Shown: positions 14,430-37,095 of the stretch, piece by piece
Layout of the letters: the number at the start of each line of letters is the position of its first letter
Numbering within the stretch: the first letter of the stretch is position 1
NCBI RefSeq assembly: GCF_900129905.1
Contig: NZ_FQXG01000003.1
Location: forward strand, 1 to 64,000
Source of the DNA: Ferrimonas marina
Lineage (GTDB): Bacteria; Pseudomonadota; Gammaproteobacteria; Enterobacterales; Shewanellaceae
Direction: 5' to 3'
DNA length: 64,000 nucleotides
Position numbers and translations under genes: made by a program
The notes under the pieces: model-generated
Databases searched by the model: none
Told to the model about the DNA's origin: nothing
What the model saw: the letters and a program-made list of their open reading frames with translations, nothing else

Positions 14430-14791
14430 GGGGGTGATTTAGGATTCGACAGGATATACGAACCCTGAGGTGCATGCCGTGGTGCGGTAGGCCACGTAAA
14501 AAAACCGCAAACTTTACAGACGCCAACGACGATCTGTACGTAGCTGTCGCCTAAACAGCGATGAGCTACCTGCCTCCAAGGCCCCGCCTGCTGGCCAAGG
14601 ATCAAGGCAGTCAAACCCTGCAGGATCGCGTGGACCCTTCGTCCGTAGGGAAAGCGTTAAAACCAATCGGACTCGCCCTGACGAAGCCTGTTGCTCGGCG
14701 TCAGAATGGGTTAACTAAATGAGCGACTAAGCATGTAGTGCCGATGGCGTAGGTATTCTGGACCCGGGTTCAACTCCCGGCACCTCCACCA
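14430..14791 (+). ncRNA. ssrA: tmRNA (SsrA), complete one-piece gene
   Basis: 362 nt. The ends pair as a tRNA-Ala-like acceptor: 5' GGGGGTG with 3' CACCTCC followed by encoded ACCA, including the G3-U70 wobble that alanyl-tRNA synthetase reads. The 5' block GGATTCGACAGG and the T-arm CCGGG-TTCAACT-CCCGG match gammaproteobacterial tmRNA. Pseudoknot 1 is intact (CGTGG/CCACG and GCGGT/ACCGC, about 14478-14510). The 3' conserved block CTAAGCATGTAG is present near 14727. The resume codon is GCC at 14522, encoding the tag A-NDDLYVAVA before TAA. With SmpB, tmRNA rescues stalled ribosomes and tags the product for proteolysis. It lies between a SLOG protein and a primase, not next to an integrase. 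Confidence 0.95.
14522..14554 (+). other. tmRNA tag reading frame
   Basis: Ten sense codons and TAA encode ANDDLYVAVA; with the charged alanine the tag would be AANDDLYVAVA. Length equals the E. coli tag (AANDENYALAA). The AAND start and Tyr7 used by SspB are kept, while the C-terminal LAA read by ClpX is replaced by AVA. Confidence 0.85.
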
Positions 14792-30944: not shown

Positions 30945-30966
30945 TGTCTTAGTATGACCTAAACCC

Positions 30967-30979
30967 AATAATTAATTGG
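30967..30979 (+). promoter_or_regulatory. A+T promoter box of the cas operon
   Basis: AATAATTAATTGG ends only four bases before the Cas6f ATG, so a transcript starting at the usual distance would be leaderless or nearly so. Confidence 0.5.
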
Positions 30980-30983
30980 TTTT

Positions 30984-31538
30984 ATGGTTTACTGCATTGG
31001 ACTGCAGATTCTGGTCATGGGCCCTACCCGTCACGGGGAGGTCATGACCTTGCTGCATAAGGCGCTGGGCTCAGTTGATGCTCCCGGCGCCATAGGGATA
31101 GCCTTTCCTGATTATCGCCTCGCGCCTACGCGCAGTTTGGGCCGTGGCTTTGTGCTCTTTGCTGAGGACCCACACTCCCTGTCCAGCCTTTTGGTGTCCC
31201 CACCTTTTTGTGCCTTGTCTGGTCAAGAGGGGATCCTGACCTACCCCGTTCAAGCTATCCCTAAGCAGGCCAGTTGGGTCCGCTTTTCCCGCGAACGCCG
31301 CCGGCAGCGGCGGGCACTGAAAGCCACCGGGCGTTACAAAGACAACGCCTTACCCAGTTTCGACATCAACAGCACATCCAATGGCCATCGCTTTCAGATC
31401 GCTGTCAGGATGGCGCCCGTTGATTCCACCGAGGTTAGAAGTGGCCTTGGCCCGTACAGCAGTTACGGCCTCAGCGCCGGCCTAGGCGGCATCGCGCCGC
31501 TGTTCCCAGTTGAGATGCTGCAACATGATTGCCAATAA
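30984..31538 (+). CDS. cas6f: Cas6f (Csy4)-like CRISPR RNA endonuclease
   Basis: 184 aa, the size of Csy4 (187 aa). Shared features: MVYCIGLQIL ahead of LLHKAL with the catalytic His25 (Csy4 His29), IGIAFPDY (Csy4 IGVSFPDL), SLGRGFVLFAED, the arginine-rich helix RFSRERRRQRRALKATGR (100-117) that grips the repeat hairpin, TSNGHRFQIAV (131-141; Csy4 STGQHFRLFI) and YGLSAGLGGIAPLF (161-174; Csy4 YGLSKGGFVPWF). It should cut repeat RNA 3' of a stem and stay bound. First of five overlapping genes. No matching repeat array is visible in the window. Confidence 0.9.
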   Translation: MVYCIGLQILVMGPTRHGEVMTLLHKALGSVDAPGAIGIAFPDYRLAPTRSLGRGFVLFAEDPHSLSSLLVSPPFCALSGQEGILTYPVQAIPKQASWVRFSRERRRQRRALKATGRYKDNALPSFDINSTSNGHRFQIAVRMAPVDSTEVRSGLGPYSSYGLSAGLGGIAPLFPVEMLQHDCQ

Positions 31539-34422
31539 AGCGGGCCAGATCCTATGGCAGCACAACCAGGCGGTGGGTGAGTTGGCTGCGGCCCTGTTTG
31601 ATCAGGCTGCGTTTCATTTTGACTCTGCCTGTTTTGCGGGGATGCCCGAGGTGTCACTGGGCCGGTTGCGGGAGACGATCCGTGTCAGTGGTCGCTGCGG
31701 GGACCTGGGTAAGATGCTGCCGGCGTTTCAGGCCTACATTCAGCAGGTGGCAGAGTTCGATGAGCGGGAAGCTGAGTGCCCTGACTACGATCCCCTGGTA
31801 CAGCCTCTACATCATGAGTTCTCACTGCTGTTGGCGGCGGCCTTGGTAAGCGGCAATGCCCAGGTTTACCCCGACATCGTTCTCTATGGAGTCTATTGGC
31901 ACCATGCGCAGTTGGTTCGCACAGAAGCAGGCCGAATAGCCGACGACACCAGGGCCATGGTGATCCGTTCACTACAGTTGTCCCAGCAAGAAGAGTTCCG
32001 CGAAGCGTTCGAGGCCTACCGCACGGCGGCACCAGAGCATCTCCAGGGTGTCGAGTTACACCACCTTCCGGAAGCTTTGCCGGGCCTGCTGGATTCACCG
32101 TCTCTCAACTTCAAATCCGCGGCACCGTTTAAGCAGGTAGCTAACGGGATGTGTCTTAAAGCAACTGTACAGCGGCACTGTGCTGAGCATTCAGCACACT
32201 GGCATCACAACCTGCTGTGCTCGATCACCAGGGCGATGGTCGTGTGTGCCGACCGGGCGGTTTCTGCCTTGTCCCCGGCCGAACTCTCAGCCTTGGTAGA
32301 GCAGTCGGGTTATCCGCAAATGGCGCAGGCGATCTACGATGACGGCATGGGGAGCGGGGTATTGACCCCTTCTATTGCTCGCTACTTGGGCGGGTTCGAC
32401 CAGTCTCAGCCACGTGTGCAGCAGCAAAAGAAAGCGGCCATGGCCCTGGCCTATACCGACGCTCGGATCTGTTCCGCTGCACCCGGGGTGGGCAAGACCA
32501 AGATTGCCCTGGAGGCCGTGCGGTTGAGGCCGCGGGAAAGGGGTAAGGTCCCCCTGTATTGGATCTGTCCTCGTAAGGCAGTGTGTGAAGCGGTGCGGCA
32601 CGAATTGCTGCAGCAGTTGCCCGAAGCCCAGATAGCGTTGCTGACCGGTGATGAGCAAACCGTGACTGGTCCAGGCGGTACGGTCCCGCTGGAAGAGCAG
32701 GCCTTTGACATCCTGGTGACCACGGTAGACCAGATGATGGCTGATCTTCTTCAACATGTCAGGGCTGACCGGCTTATCAGCTTCCTTGCCGCCAGTGTCG
32801 TGTTTGATGAGTTCCACGAGGTGATCACCGATCCTGCCCTGCTCCCCTTCTTTTGGGAGCTAGTCTGGCTCAAGACCTACCAGTCCGATCGTGACATTAC
32901 TTTGCTGTCCGGTACCCCGGCACCGGTGCACCTTCAGTTTCTTGGGGCCTACTGGTCCAAGCCAGCACACAGCGTTCGCTGCCGCCGGCACAGCGCGACT
33001 AAATACCAGTTGGACTTCGCCAGGCTCAACGCCGCGGCAGTACAGGATCGGATCGTGCGCGAAGACTGCAAGGACACAGCGGTGTTCTTGAACCGGGCAG
33101 CGTCAGTACAAGCGGCTTACCTGGGCGCCATCGAGCGCGGTTGCCATAGTGCCCTCCCCTTTCATGCCAGTCTCAGCACATCTGACCGTCAGCGCCTACT
33201 CGCGCTGCTGCAGGCGAATTTTGGGCCCACCACATCTAACCAGCTCTTTGATCGCCTGATCAGTGGCCCTGCCGGGCGTGCTGCTTTGAATATCTCTAGG
33301 GCTAAGGGTCTGCTGGAGGTAGCGGCGCCGGAATCGACGCTGCAGCAGTTTGGTCGTATTGCCCGCTTCGGAGGCGCGGAATTTGCCCCGGTGACGCTGT
33401 TCAGCGATCCAGACCGTGCAGCCTTGCCACTGCCAGGCGAATCGGTGGAGCCTATTAAGGATTACTCGCTCTCGAAGCAGCACAGTGCCCATACGGCGTT
33501 GGCCTTTTTGATGTGGATGCAATTGCGGGCCGGATCGGCGCTCGATATGGATGAGCTGTCGGATCTCTACCTCGAATTCTATCGGGCCCTGCTCTGCTCT
33601 GAAACGTCCGACGTCTCCGCCGAACTTGCGCGGTCACAAGGATTGTGGATCACAGAGGGTGACGCGCTACTGTGGGGCGTGCTCAGTGAAAGCCTGTCGG
33701 GGGAACCGCTGACCTGGCCCAGGCAATTGAAAAAGCGTCTTGGGGAGTTGGCTGAATCCGATAAGCAAGCCGGTGGGGCGTTCATCGCCCGGGATGTGCT
33801 GGACAGGGTCAAGGCGTCGCTACCGGCATGGCATCAGAGGCTAAAGCAGGCGCTGGCCTGGCCCGCGCAAGCACAGGGTGCGGTCATGGCAGATTTTCTG
33901 GCTTTCTCTGCAGAGATTGAAGAGCGCGGCCTTAAGGCGTGCGCTTTGGCACCGCGGAAATACCTGGTGAGTAATGGCCAGCGTCAAGTCTCCAAGATCA
34001 ATCTGCGTGGGCGGTCGGTGTACTGCTCCGCCCCCCTTGAGCATTACAAAGAGGATCGCCTGCATCAACTGGGGTATCTGGGCCAGGGTACTGACTGCCC
34101 GGCAGAGCTGGTCAGCGTGGATGAGCAAAGGCTGGCGCGGGGCCGGGACTTTGATGAGGTCTGTGACCGTGCGAAGCGGCACATGGCCCATGTCACCCCC
34201 GCTCGCCTCAAGCGGATGCGCAACCGGCTGACCTTCGGGGCTGCCAAGATCCCGGTGCAGAAACAGATGCTGGTAGATGCGCGCCGGCCGGATGCCCCGC
34301 TGGTGTTGGGACTGACCGAGCAGCACATGGAAGAGTTAGGGATGGCGAAGCCGGTGGGCTTTCGCTACGTCATCGTGGAGTCGAATAAGGAGTCGGTGCC
34401 AGTGGGGTTAGTCGAAGTATGA
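31525..34422 (+). CDS. cas3: Cas3-like HD nuclease-helicase, no Cas2 fusion
   Basis: 965 aa. Residues 1-250 form a Cas3''-type HD domain: His13 (QHNQAVGELA), GDLGKMLPAFQ at 59-69 where Gly59 stands for the dyad His, HHE at 96-98, WHHA at 125-128, and Asp243 (CADRAVSAL). The SF2 helicase follows: APGVGKT (319-325), DEFHE (428-432), LLSGTP (460-465), and QFGRIARFG (608-616). The last 300 residues are unassigned. In type I systems Cas3 unwinds and shreds target DNA after Cascade recruitment. I-F Cas3 normally has Cas2 fused at its N-terminus; here it is absent. Overlaps cas6f by 14 bp. Confidence 0.82.
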   Translation: MIANKAGQILWQHNQAVGELAAALFDQAAFHFDSACFAGMPEVSLGRLRETIRVSGRCGDLGKMLPAFQAYIQQVAEFDEREAECPDYDPLVQPLHHEFSLLLAAALVSGNAQVYPDIVLYGVYWHHAQLVRTEAGRIADDTRAMVIRSLQLSQQEEFREAFEAYRTAAPEHLQGVELHHLPEALPGLLDSPSLNFKSAAPFKQVANGMCLKATVQRHCAEHSAHWHHNLLCSITRAMVVCADRAVSALSPAELSALVEQSGYPQMAQAIYDDGMGSGVLTPSIARYLGGFDQSQPRVQQQKKAAMALAYTDARICSAAPGVGKTKIALEAVRLRPRERGKVPLYWICPRKAVCEAVRHELLQQLPEAQIALLTGDEQTVTGPGGTVPLEEQAFDILVTTVDQMMADLLQHVRADRLISFLAASVVFDEFHEVITDPALLPFFWELVWLKTYQSDRDITLLSGTPAPVHLQFLGAYWSKPAHSVRCRRHSATKYQLDFARLNAAAVQDRIVREDCKDTAVFLNRAASVQAAYLGAIERGCHSALPFHASLSTSDRQRLLALLQANFGPTTSNQLFDRLISGPAGRAALNISRAKGLLEVAAPESTLQQFGRIARFGGAEFAPVTLFSDPDRAALPLPGESVEPIKDYSLSKQHSAHTALAFLMWMQLRAGSALDMDELSDLYLEFYRALLCSETSDVSAELARSQGLWITEGDALLWGVLSESLSGEPLTWPRQLKKRLGELAESDKQAGGAFIARDVLDRVKASLPAWHQRLKQALAWPAQAQGAVMADFLAFSAEIEERGLKACALAPRKYLVSNGQRQVSKINLRGRSVYCSAPLEHYKEDRLHQLGYLGQGTDCPAELVSVDEQRLARGRDFDEVCDRAKRHMAHVTPARLKRMRNRLTFGAAKIPVQKQMLVDARRPDAPLVLGLTEQHMEELGMAKPVGFRYVIVESNKESVPVGLVEV

Positions 34423-35414
34423 TCGACGGGATCAAGTATGTAGAGCTCGATATACGGGCCCACGGCTATGGCGTGGTGAACTGGAACGGAGTAGCAACCA
34501 AGGGGGAGCCGGTCAAGGTTGCCGGACAGACCTACGTTCCTGAGTATTCCAACCACACCATCCCTAAGCTGAGAAACGGCCAGATCTACGTCAGTTCCAA
34601 GTGCATTCGCCACTACCTGTTCCGGGAAGAGGCCTTTGGCCTGGCCATGTCCGGTGATGCCTGCTTCCACGCCAAGTCCGGCGAGGGGGTTGGCTTTCTC
34701 GAGCAGAAGCTACTGGCTATGCTCAGCTCATCAGTAGGGCTACTGCGCGGCTACCTCGAAACCGTCAAAGGCGCCGCATCCGGAGGCTACATGAAAGCCT
34801 CCCCGTTGACCGTCTCTGACTTCGAGGAGACCCTGGGTAACGTCACGCTGTACGAGCAGCACTGCCACGGTGCCGATCCCACCGCTGACGGCAAGGGGAA
34901 CACCTTCTTCAGTCGCACGACAGCCGGCGAAACCGCTTACCGCGGGCGATGCGTGATTGGGATAGAGGATCTGCAGTTCATCTCACTGTCCACGGTTGCC
35001 TGGCGCTGCGCTTACCCAATCCAGGGTGGGGCACTGGACGCTGGGGTCGTTGAGGCCACAGAGCGCCTTCGGGTAGGGATATTGGATTACCTGGAACGTG
35101 CCAAGTTGATGCTTGGGTTGGACCAGCTGAAGCCTGGGCTGCAGGTAGGCCTGTTCAGTCGCCGCAATGCGTTGGTGCCGCTTAATGAATATGGCTTATT
35201 GCTGGATCAGGACGCAATAGAGGTGCTGGTTCAGTTGGTGATCGCCCGGTTTAAAGCATTGGTGATCACCCAGGGTCAGGGCATGTTCGCCGTCGACGAT
35301 GTCAGGGTCTGTTTTAGTGACCGGCCGCAGCGATGGGATACCACTAAGTTCCAGGGCAACGAGCGAGGCGAGCCCTATGCCCAATACTACGAGGCTCAGT
35401 GGTGCTGGTTCTGA
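34419..35414 (+). CDS. cas7: Cas7-like crRNA backbone protein
   Basis: 331 aa. HTIPKLRNGQIYVSSKCIRH (about 46-65) continuing into YLF is typical of Cas7f/Csy3-type proteins and their I-F2 counterparts. The rest has the mixed RRM-like strands and long insertions expected of Cas7. In the complex several Cas7 copies coat the crRNA spacer. Coupled to cas3 by an ATGA overlap. Its short length fits I-F1 Csy3 or I-F2 Cas7fv equally well. Confidence 0.7.
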   Translation: MIDGIKYVELDIRAHGYGVVNWNGVATKGEPVKVAGQTYVPEYSNHTIPKLRNGQIYVSSKCIRHYLFREEAFGLAMSGDACFHAKSGEGVGFLEQKLLAMLSSSVGLLRGYLETVKGAASGGYMKASPLTVSDFEETLGNVTLYEQHCHGADPTADGKGNTFFSRTTAGETAYRGRCVIGIEDLQFISLSTVAWRCAYPIQGGALDAGVVEATERLRVGILDYLERAKLMLGLDQLKPGLQVGLFSRRNALVPLNEYGLLLDQDAIEVLVQLVIARFKALVITQGQGMFAVDDVRVCFSDRPQRWDTTKFQGNERGEPYAQYYEAQWCWF

Positions 35415-36418
35415 CCTTCAATGTCAGCGGCGCTGACTTGAGCCAGCATGACGCCCCCTCCAGCCCGGGAGCGGCCGAGTTTCGCCGTCATGGTGCCAAC
35501 CCCATCTACCACTCCACGGGTCGGTCTGATCTGGCACTGGGTTTGTTACATCGCTTTGCCGGCGACATTCGAAGAATGACGCTGATAGAGCAGGGGCCAA
35601 AAGGGTGCCTGGAGGGGGTCCGGGTGAGTCACATTGCTGATTGGCAGCAACACGAACAGGACTCCGCCCGGCTGGCCCGGGTTAAGACGGCAAGTTCAGC
35701 GGATGGGCATCTCTGTGTCCCGGGCCAATGGGCCGCTGCGAAGCCGGCTGTTGCGGTTCTTGAGCAAAGTTGCGCTCTGGCGGTGATCACTGCCTCGGCG
35801 GAGCAGGTGTTGTCGGTGTTCTCAGGTCTGGAGCCGGAGGAATTGGCTGTGATGGTGAGGGCGGCCCCTTTGTGGTGGGACGGTGAGATGAGTCCTGGGC
35901 AGGAGTGGCAGATTGATGCCCTTGAGGCGGTGGCACGGTGGTCCCGTCCACCGACCGAGGATTGGTTGAGTCTCAGCTATGCCGATGCCCGTAACGAAAA
36001 AGACCCGGCGCATGTGCGCCAGCTCAGGGCGGTGCTTATGGTGTTGTTGGTGTCGCATTGCCGGCAGCGGTGCGAGCGCGGTTTCGCCCATGGCTTTGTC
36101 AATCGGATGAGGTTGTTGAAGCAGGTGGCCGGCAAGCCTATTGCTGGTGGGTGGGTAAGCCCTGCCCGCCCCTACTTCGAAGCGCTTTACAGCGGTGCAG
36201 TAGCCAAGTCGGTGCACCAGTACAAGCGCGGCGGGCGGCGCGCAGATGGCCAGGTGACACTCACGGTGGCTTCGGTGAAGGACACGCTGGAAGAGCGCTG
36301 GACTCACCTGCGGCAAATACAGCGGGTAATAGAGCAATCGGGGGTTCTGCTGAGTCGCTATGGTCGCAGCGGTACCGCACAGTTGATGAGCGTAGTTTTA
36401 AGTCCGGAGGAGGACTGA
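35399..36418 (+). CDS. Cas5-position protein of the cas operon
   Basis: 339 aa. The first residues are a hydrophobic strand (MVLVLTFNVSGADL), as expected of an RRM fold. The sequence then shows a long helical region (about 110-220) and a basic C-terminal part (SVHQYKRGGRRADG near 270). I cannot confirm Cas5 motifs. Position and size match Cas5fv, which follows Cas7fv in I-F2 and also performs part of the Cas8 role. A GTG start overlaps cas7 by 16 bp with GAGG at proper distance. Confidence 0.5.
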   Translation: MVLVLTFNVSGADLSQHDAPSSPGAAEFRRHGANPIYHSTGRSDLALGLLHRFAGDIRRMTLIEQGPKGCLEGVRVSHIADWQQHEQDSARLARVKTASSADGHLCVPGQWAAAKPAVAVLEQSCALAVITASAEQVLSVFSGLEPEELAVMVRAAPLWWDGEMSPGQEWQIDALEAVARWSRPPTEDWLSLSYADARNEKDPAHVRQLRAVLMVLLVSHCRQRCERGFAHGFVNRMRLLKQVAGKPIAGGWVSPARPYFEALYSGAVAKSVHQYKRGGRRADGQVTLTVASVKDTLEERWTHLRQIQRVIEQSGVLLSRYGRSGTAQLMSVVLSPEED

Positions 36419-37095
36419 TGAAGGGTTTGGCCCTTGAGTTTGGCGTGGAGCAGTGCAGTATTGGTACCGGCACGCCCGTGGTGGTGGTGGTGAGCAAAGC
36501 CTTATGCCCTAAAGCCTTCCAGGTGTTATCCGACCGGGAGATGGCAAAGTACGACAATGCACTGGCTTATGCACAGCAGGCACGTGATGAACAGTCTGAG
36601 GGCATGCAGGAGCTGTGGCGGTTTCTGGCCCAGGTGCAACGCCGGTGGAAGGCCTCATTTACCATTGCCTGTACGTCGCAGTTGGGGCTGCACCAGGGGA
36701 GCGGCGCTAATGTAATGTCCCTGTTCGGCACCTGGGGGGACCGCAGCTGTTTCAATTGCGGCTGGTCAGGCCCAGTTAGTGGTGAAGGGGTGGTTCAGTG
36801 CCCGGCATGCGACAGCGAAACCGAGTTGAGTGACTTGAGTCGTGTGATGTTTGATCCGCATCCTGATACGTTGATGCCGTTCTACCACAGGTTGGAGCAA
36901 GCCGGTGCCCTACTCTTGCTGGGCCCGATGGACAGCTCAGATGCACCGCTACACTTCTCGCCCTTGGTACGCCGATCAAAACTGATCGACTGCTATCTGG
37001 TGTCCGACCAGAACCCCCACTCCGAGTTGACCTCGGTGCAGATGCCACTCAAGCCTACCGAGGCGATAAGGCTGAACAAGTTAGCGCTGTGCTAG
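36418..37095 (+). CDS. Degenerate sirtuin-like zinc protein of the cas operon
   Basis: 225 aa. The segment SQLGLHQGSGANVMSLFG (87-104) followed by CFNCG (111-115) and CPAC (128-131) lines up with the sirtuin core (GLHQ..AG..NV..LHG, C..C, C..C). Phe103 replaces the catalytic His, and the N-terminal GAG-type NAD loop is missing: residues 21-25 are VVVVV followed by SKALCPK. LLLLGPMDSSD (165-175) resembles the late sirtuin strand. It is therefore unlikely to be an active deacylase or NADase. The ATG overlaps the stop of the previous gene (TGATG) with GGAGGAGG upstream. Another reading is a Csf1-like zinc-finger subunit of type IV systems. Confidence 0.72.
   Translation: MKGLALEFGVEQCSIGTGTPVVVVVSKALCPKAFQVLSDREMAKYDNALAYAQQARDEQSEGMQELWRFLAQVQRRWKASFTIACTSQLGLHQGSGANVMSLFGTWGDRSCFNCGWSGPVSGEGVVQCPACDSETELSDLSRVMFDPHPDTLMPFYHRLEQAGALLLLGPMDSSDAPLHFSPLVRRSKLIDCYLVSDQNPHSELTSVQMPLKPTEAIRLNKLALC

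Follow-up and report, generated by a model that had tools for sequence, protein, structure and literature searches.

The first 64,000 nucleotides of Ferrimonas marina contig NZ_FQXG01000003.1 (the whole stretch analysed, hereafter the window) form the start of a 576,248-bp contig, C10, and carry on the + strand an operon of five genes (positions 30984-37095) in the order cas6f-cas3-cas7fv-cas5-like-sirtuin-like. The operon is tentatively interpreted as a plasmid-borne, interference-only effector derived from subtype I-F2 of the CRISPR (clustered regularly interspaced short palindromic repeats) systems, in which Cas3 would serve chiefly as a helicase, in the manner of the type IV-A DinG, and guides would come in trans; this reading is given somewhat less than an even chance. 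Two of its features, absent from a first-pass annotation of the same DNA, are the replacement of the HD-dyad histidine of Cas3 by glycine and the loss of the catalytic residues in the sirtuin-like protein.

The five open reading frames (ORFs) are consecutive and intact over 6.1 kb, and with the chosen starts they overlap by 14, 4, 16 and 1 bp in order, in agreement with the five overlapping genes of the first-pass annotation. The Cas6f, the Cas3 not fused to Cas2 and the Cas7-like protein that it had named are borne out by profiles (PF09618, PADLOC Cas3fv and NF040577, respectively); the profile searches that it had proposed for all five proteins thus named genes 1 to 3, but genes 4 and 5 obtained no accepted family match (Pfam, PADLOC, NCBIfam). 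To gather relatives, an alignment headed by the window Cas7 was run against 84,980 species genomes; this gave 199 pattern matches and, from these, 163 relatives. The scan requires one of two conserved peptides, so that relatives with both altered would escape. The comparison set comprises 81 I-F2 loci (the best 80 of the 163 relatives and one jumbo-phage locus), whose Cas7 proteins are 54-89% identical to the Acinetobacter reference Cas7. ORF and length filters left 76 Cas5fv, 72 Cas6f, 78 Cas3 and 80 Cas7 rows, and for the profiles of other families 17 of 30 sirtuin loci and 8 of 22 Csy2 loci were kept.

Gene 1 (csy4-like; 30984..31538, 184 residues) matches Pfam PF09618 (E 1.1e-14) and NCBIfam TIGR02563 (38.9 bits, cut-off 36.25). 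Its product retains His25, which we take to be the Csy4 catalytic histidine, together with Ser130 and Gly162, each invariant in 72/72 I-F2 Cas6f, as well as GLS at 162-164, and keeps 20 of the 30 columns that are at least 85% conserved in I-F2 Cas6f. Precursor cleavage by this protein looks possible, perhaps with an altered RNA preference. Just 5' of the cas6f start codon, at window 30960-30984, the sequence CCAAT-AATTA-ATTGG forms by eye a 5-bp stem with a 5-nt loop; in size it resembles a hairpin cut by Cas6f, yet it is A+T-rich, and it may be an operator or a site of autoregulation or have arisen by chance. Gene 3 (34419..35414, 331 residues) encodes the Cas7fv-like backbone protein (NF040577, 348 bits; cut-off 200), which is 37-39% identical to 7 I-F2 Cas7 in global alignment and 28-32% identical to the Cas7 of the 81 loci by tblastn. 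In a tree built from 40 of the 80 I-F2 Cas7fv, 8 I-F1 Csy3 and the window protein, the last falls toward I-F2, yet it lies outside every one of the 40 I-F2 Cas7fv, on a long branch (3.59); the support for the I-F2 group excluding it was 91/93, with a warning of long-branch effects from the program.

Gene 2 (31525..34422) encodes a 965-residue Cas3 with HD and superfamily 2 helicase domains, to which a TTG start further upstream would give 5 more codons. It matches PADLOC Cas3fv (E 9.9e-78) and, as the closest solved chain, 9g44_A (E 1.2e-49), with a Pfam Cas3_HD score narrowly below cut-off (23.0 against 23.1 bits). Structure 9g44 was considered as a new Cas2-less system and rejected, because its Cas5fv chain is also that of 5o6u and 5o7h, which makes it I-Fv; all three are presumably from Shewanella putrefaciens. 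The absence of a Cas2 domain in the operon Cas3 is seen in its alignment to I-F2 Cas2-3, which begins at residue 1-3 in most loci compared, the DNA in front being filled by cas6f. With Cas6f and Cas7fv, this Cas3 is at the level of sequence an established homologue of the I-F2 proteins.

The operon Cas3 retains 92 of the 164 columns that are at least 95% conserved in 78 I-F2 Cas3, and all 12 helicase residues inspected, which we assign to Walker A, DExH, motif III and motif VI, are present. In the HD domain, H13, D60, K63, H96, H126, H127 and D243 are retained, and six of seven metal ligands (a list that we take to stem from solved Cas3 structures) are in place. The seventh is the HD-dyad histidine, found in 77/78 I-F2 Cas3 (with a gap in one) and replaced here by Gly59, the dyad reading GD (Gly59-Asp60, codons GGG GAC, 31699..31704). 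From either His codon GGG takes three base changes, and therefore one base-call error cannot explain Gly59. The residue aligns with His74 of Escherichia coli Cas3, whose H74A mutant is described as a dead nuclease that cuts neither target strand (PMC9427990, PMC6897959). Because Gly59 sits at this position, we infer that the nuclease of the operon Cas3 is lost or much reduced, whereas unwinding may remain. The same residues bear on an alternative in which the operon would be an ordinary divergent I-F2 module, with a Cas3 that cuts despite Gly59, an array in the part of the genome outside the scan, or other replicons, as the source of guides, and an accessory role for gene 5. The six histidines and aspartates retained in the HD domain favour this alternative, but the residue that was lost is the very one mutated to obtain the nuclease-dead E. 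coli enzyme, and overall it is judged unlikely, with a chance that is nonetheless far from negligible. Inside cas3, at window 32444-32529, an Rfam IRES_Bip match (E 1.2e-4) stays below the gathering score (26.3 bits versus 40) and was taken as chance.

Gene 4 (35399..36418, GTG start) occupies the place of cas5fv in I-F2 and has 339 residues versus 336 in the solved Cas5fv. When compared with hidden Markov models (HMMs) of 76 Cas5fv, it gave two weak motif matches, one of HMM positions 51-68 to residues 43-60 (conserved GVLNRLIGDQRKL versus GLLHRFAGDIRRM) and the other of the C-terminal IENAGV...GKKGLA to residues 304-327, both at nearly the same positions as in Cas5fv. Among 20000 shuffles of gene 4, the first motif was as strong anywhere in 53 and in place in 7, the second as strong anywhere in 226 and in place in 14, and both jointly in place in none. 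The same C-terminal match was found by hhalign, with a score of 22.1, the best of 60 shuffles reaching 21.4. With the full-length Cas5fv HMM, gene 4 does not stand out from its shuffles (21 of the 561 scored, of 2000, equal it), the HMM of the middle part has no match in the protein, and global hhalign produced no sensible full alignment. Identities as Csy1, Csy2 or Cas7 were rejected, with hhalign scores no better than shuffles or no similarity. Position, length and the paired motifs suggest that gene 4 is likely a very divergent Cas5fv subunit.

Gene 5 (36418..37095, 225 residues) gave by HMMER no more than a sub-threshold sirtuin match (NCBIfam deacylase, E 0.045). In hhalign against 17 bacterial sirtuins it aligned over 103 columns with probability 84 and E 7.6e-6, and 0/60 shuffles were as good; a forced whole-length alignment was weaker (E 6.5e-4, probability 11). 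Over these 103 columns it has in common with zinc-containing sirtuins (CobB-like, PF02146) the zinc module and its flanks, including both CxxC pairs (36748..36810), whereas their Gly-rich GAGxS loop for nicotinamide adenine dinucleotide (NAD), their Gln-Asn-Ile-Asp (QNID) motif and their catalytic histidine are replaced, the last by Phe (HG to FG, 36724..36726). The roles given to these three sites are our own assignment. With these substitutions, the gene 5 product appears best called a sirtuin-derived pseudoenzyme. The folds ascribed to the products of genes 4 and 5 both derive from sequence profiles. Candidate identities as Cas5fv, Csy1, Csy2, Cas7 or Csf1 gave shuffle-like scores or no similarity and were discarded.

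In type IV-A, reading of the protospacer adjacent motif (PAM) is ascribed to Cas5 plus the zinc-finger domain of Cas8 (PMC11519345), and by its position and zinc site gene 5 is a candidate for the PAM-end zinc part beside Cas5. A link between SIR2 domains and CRISPR has been described for CARF/SAVED proteins (Altae-Tran 2023, PMC10910872), and excerpts of reviews present defence sirtuins as NAD-depleting effectors. Excerpts of the open-licence literature on sirtuins with Cascade or type I-F placed none inside a type I operon, the SIR2-CRISPR link appearing there just via CARF/SAVED. Those proteins likewise bring a sirtuin-like domain near CRISPR genes, but gene 5 differs in being an apparently dead, zinc-bearing sirtuin within a type I operon; a Pfam profile search matched neither CARF nor HNH in the five operon proteins.

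The lack of adaptation genes proposed in the first-pass annotation was confirmed, with no Cas1 match anywhere in the genome and no Cas2 in the operon. The 64-kb window holds no direct-repeat array (no pair at 20 of 26 identity with spacing 54-69), and the I-F-type repeat pattern found one isolated 2-mismatch match in the whole genome and nothing more, which stands against the module being an ordinary I-F2 one. The array scan covered 2.39 Mb of 4.98 Mb (48%), made up of 0.51 Mb of C10 and 1.48 Mb plus 0.40 Mb of other contigs; weak pairs (below 22 of 26 on C10; nine stretches at 21-22 of 26 elsewhere) were left out of viewing. Within this half of the genome, the sole array recognised lies at C10:298,638-299,514, 262 kb from the operon. 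The earlier suggestion of an array elsewhere on the element is correct to that extent, but this one sits behind a type IV-A operon. Operon and array together occupy C10:293230-299514 (L114:9230-15514), about 256 kb from the five genes, in the order csf1-cas6-dinG-csf3-csf2; DinG is matched by PADLOC at E 6.2e-120, and the best csf1 and cas6 matches are IV-A3 models, that of csf1 at merely 1.1e-6. The array has 15 repeat-spacer units, in which 14 spacers measure 33 nt and the remaining one 28 nt, and 14 repeats at no more than 3 mismatches are all on C10, with none elsewhere in the genome. Variation among its repeats is concentrated in the hairpin loop, and the repeats degenerate toward the 3' end. 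On the earlier suggestion that rival plasmids might be the target, two of the 15 spacers, searched singly against plasmids, had no credible match, and neither did the spacers against own-genome stretches (best 17 nt, E 0.002).

Other array candidates were rejected. On further contigs, 8 of 17 flagged stretches were simple or coding repeats, as was the first flagged place in each of the six flagged among 20 additional stretches; on C10, six other places were viewed and dismissed along with irregular AACTCTGTTTATCGATCC repeats. At C10:201700-203100, GTTTATCGATC recurs twelve times at irregular spacing, mostly as part of AACTCTGTTTATCGATCC, and contigs C5, C12, C14, C15 and C17 contain long runs of short units, e.g., CTAGCAC, CTAGCCC and CTAGGAG.

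Being the only one recognised, the IV-A array raises the alternative that the operon has no array since it uses IV-A array transcripts of the same contig. The 28-nt IV-A repeat has a 5-bp stem, a 4-nt loop and an 8-nt 3' tail, near the I-F layout, its stem occupying positions 7-11/16-20 versus 6-10/16-20 in the I-F repeat, with an equal tail. In addition, the operon Cas6f matches the PADLOC type IV-A Cas6 model (E 4.3e-9), though below the Cas6f models (2.8e-16). However, the IV-A operon has a Cas6 of its own (PADLOC typeIV_Cas6, 6.4e-13) with no similarity to the operon Cas6f; an Rfam search at E up to 1 gives no family for the IV-A repeat, while that of the jumbo-phage I-F2 locus does match CRISPR-DR4; and the IV-A repeat folds no better than shuffles (z -0.68 versus -2.58 for the I-F repeat). 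Repeats with 5-bp hairpins, moreover, occur in several subtypes. Guide sharing with the IV-A array is held to be decidedly improbable.

The replicon itself is read as a conjugative-type megaplasmid. Pfam matches above cut-off to TrwB- and TraG/TraD-like conjugation proteins, and a TrbI-like match below it, agree with the mobile setting that had been suggested for the operon; no relaxase was identified on C10. The G+C content of the contig is 56.5%; for the opening 20 kb of 15 further contigs it is 58-64%, and for the two shortest contigs 57%. C10 also encodes a type IA topoisomerase, a UvrD helicase, DNA polymerase III alpha and a ribonucleotide reductase. It bears a transfer-messenger RNA (tmRNA) gene as well (window 14430-14791, tag ANDDLYVAVA), another one being on C12; these are the only two over cut-off in the genome. 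As a type IV-A module with DinG lies on the same contig, the replicon probably already uses helicase-type interference. Type I and type IV have been reported together on a single plasmid (PMC9071438), and their co-residence is therefore not new.

The first-pass annotation placed the operon nearest to I-F2, with a changed gene order and a new last gene, and both the profile matches and the 81-locus comparison support this. All five I-F2 genes stand in the usual order in 65 of the 81 loci and in part of that order in the remaining 16, with no exception; genes 4 and 5 have matches in 0/81 at E 1e-3. The gene order, gene 5 and Cas3 Gly59 are shared with none of the loci compared. Of the 71 loci whose sequence extends 1.5 kb or more beyond the cas3 match on its 5' side, 7 lack a cas1 match (L022, L028, L039, L040, L051, with only 1.6 kb upstream, L059 and L062), and the Cas3 ORFs of these 7 have 852-896 residues versus about 980. 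Loss of adaptation and of Cas2 therefore also occurs within I-F2, and a free-standing Cas3 without cas1 is not unique to the operon. The earlier claim that the operon fits no standard subtype thus holds insofar as it lies outside I-F2, but it is a divergent relative of that subtype. These seven loci are also a point for the ordinary I-F2 module, some having arrays: repeat pairs number 7 in L022, 8 in L028, 21 in L059 and two in L062. L022:7402-13150, on a 363-kb IMG/VR viral contig (jumbo phage), is an interference-only I-F2 locus (Cas3 without Cas2, cas7fv, cas5fv, cas6f) whose array has nine CRISPR-DR4 repeats, eight above gathering score, with no cas1 match within 20.8 kb. The other six are possibly mobile or orphan I-F2 modules.

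A neighbourhood search among other plasmids, as the first-pass annotation had proposed, did not find the same five-gene set: by protein, genes 2 and 3 matched the same 4 I-F2-type records, gene 4 one chance-level piece (E 0.8) and gene 5 none, and by DNA there was no relative of the operon. Phages, searched with gene 3 only, had no relative, and viral contigs none with genes 2 and 3 as single queries, the Cas7 alignment finding there one jumbo-phage I-F2 locus. Among sampled genomes, Cas7 matches were found in 1/152 of the family (own only), 7/394 of the order and 8/398 of the phylum, own counted. Five of the six other order-level matches are I-F2, and one matched none of the five operon proteins; the five new phylum-level matches are at 33-35% where shown in full. 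Genes 4 and 5 each matched in 2/369 genomes of the class sample, the non-own match (E 5e-4 or 8e-4) having internal stops.

Several observations weigh against a helicase-type effector. Cas6f departs from 10 of the 30 well-conserved columns, including two Arg (R57V, R115T), and because of this RNA recognition may be shifted or weakened. No array for the operon was recognised in the 2.39 Mb scanned, so that the supply of guides is a conjecture; the searches turned up no relative of gene 4 or gene 5 by which to gauge the conservation of gene 5 or Gly59; gene 5 shows no resemblance to the Csf1 of the same plasmid; and loss of one metal ligand need not end nuclease activity in a distant homologue. 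Some of these points would also suit a relic, that is, an operon that came with the plasmid, lost array and adaptation and is now decaying, with Gly59 as an early lesion: no array was found and no Cas1, divergence is strong, the Cas3 site is degenerate and two conserved Cas6f Arg are changed. Against decay stand the five intact, tightly overlapping ORFs over 6.1 kb, the retention of the Cas6f His and Ser, the helicase motifs and the zinc cysteines, and the three base changes needed for His to Gly, which make it improbable.

Under the preferred reading of a helicase-type, I-F2-derived effector, Cas6f would cut a precursor supplied in trans, and Cas6f, Cas7 copies and the Cas5-like subunit would assemble as Cascade, which the sirtuin-like zinc protein would join next to Cas5 at the PAM end, unless it serves as a Cas3 adaptor. 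R-loop formation would then recruit Cas3, which would unwind the target and cut it little or not at all. Target DNA would be silenced or displaced, a function comparable to that of type IV-A with DinG and serving the megaplasmid. If true, a natural type I system would have swapped DNA shredding for helicase silencing, apparently independently of type IV-A and on a plasmid also bearing IV-A; a route from type I to type IV-like interference would become testable, and a sirtuin fold would have been recruited as a structural CRISPR subunit. As a deep I-F2 relative, the operon would also help to trace the replacement of Cas8 by Cas5fv. A bolder version, in which a naturally nuclease-free type I effector combines an I-F2-derived Cascade, a helicase-only Cas3 and a dead sirtuin standing in for the large subunit, with the IV-A array feeding two silencing machines, is a long shot.

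Among known systems, subtype I-F1 can be set aside to the extent that PF09614 (Csy2) was not found in the own genome and genes 4 and 5 scored at shuffle level by hhalign against 8 Csy1 and 8 Csy2. For the I-F3 CRISPR-associated transposons (CAST), genes 4 and 5 had no Pfam TniQ match at E up to 1, and no search aimed at Tn7 genes was made. I-F4 is described as an HNH fused to Cas8f with Cas3 usually absent (PMC12669027), and the operon differs from it in having no HNH match. The same source draws an I-F variant intermediate between I-F1 and I-F2, to which the operon may or may not be equal. With I-F2 (I-Fv) it has in common Cas7fv, Cas6f and an HD-helicase Cas3 of the Cas3fv family, no Cas8f being found; for Cas5fv, gene 4 is a likely candidate. 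The I-F2 order, however, is cas1-cas2-3-cas7-cas5-cas6f, with an adjacent array of I-F-type repeats, an HD His in Cas3 and no sirtuin-like gene, whereas here it is cas6f-cas3-cas7-cas5-gene 5, without cas1, Cas2 or such an array, with Gly59 and an extra gene. The seven adaptation-less I-F2 loci resemble the operon in lacking cas1 and in their short Cas3, but they keep the order cas3-cas7-cas5-cas6 (L051 ends before cas6) and the HD His in all seven, with no match to genes 4 or 5. Because adaptation genes, gene order, array and a complete HD site depart from I-F2, although Cas7fv and Cas6f agree with it, the operon is filed outside that subtype, as an apparently new, distant variant related to it. 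Type IV-A3, finally, is likewise plasmid-borne and without adaptation genes, with a helicase as probable effector and a zinc protein beside Cas5, but it relies on DinG (Csf4), Csf2 and Csf1 where the operon has Cas3, Cas7fv and a gene 5 product unlike Csf1.

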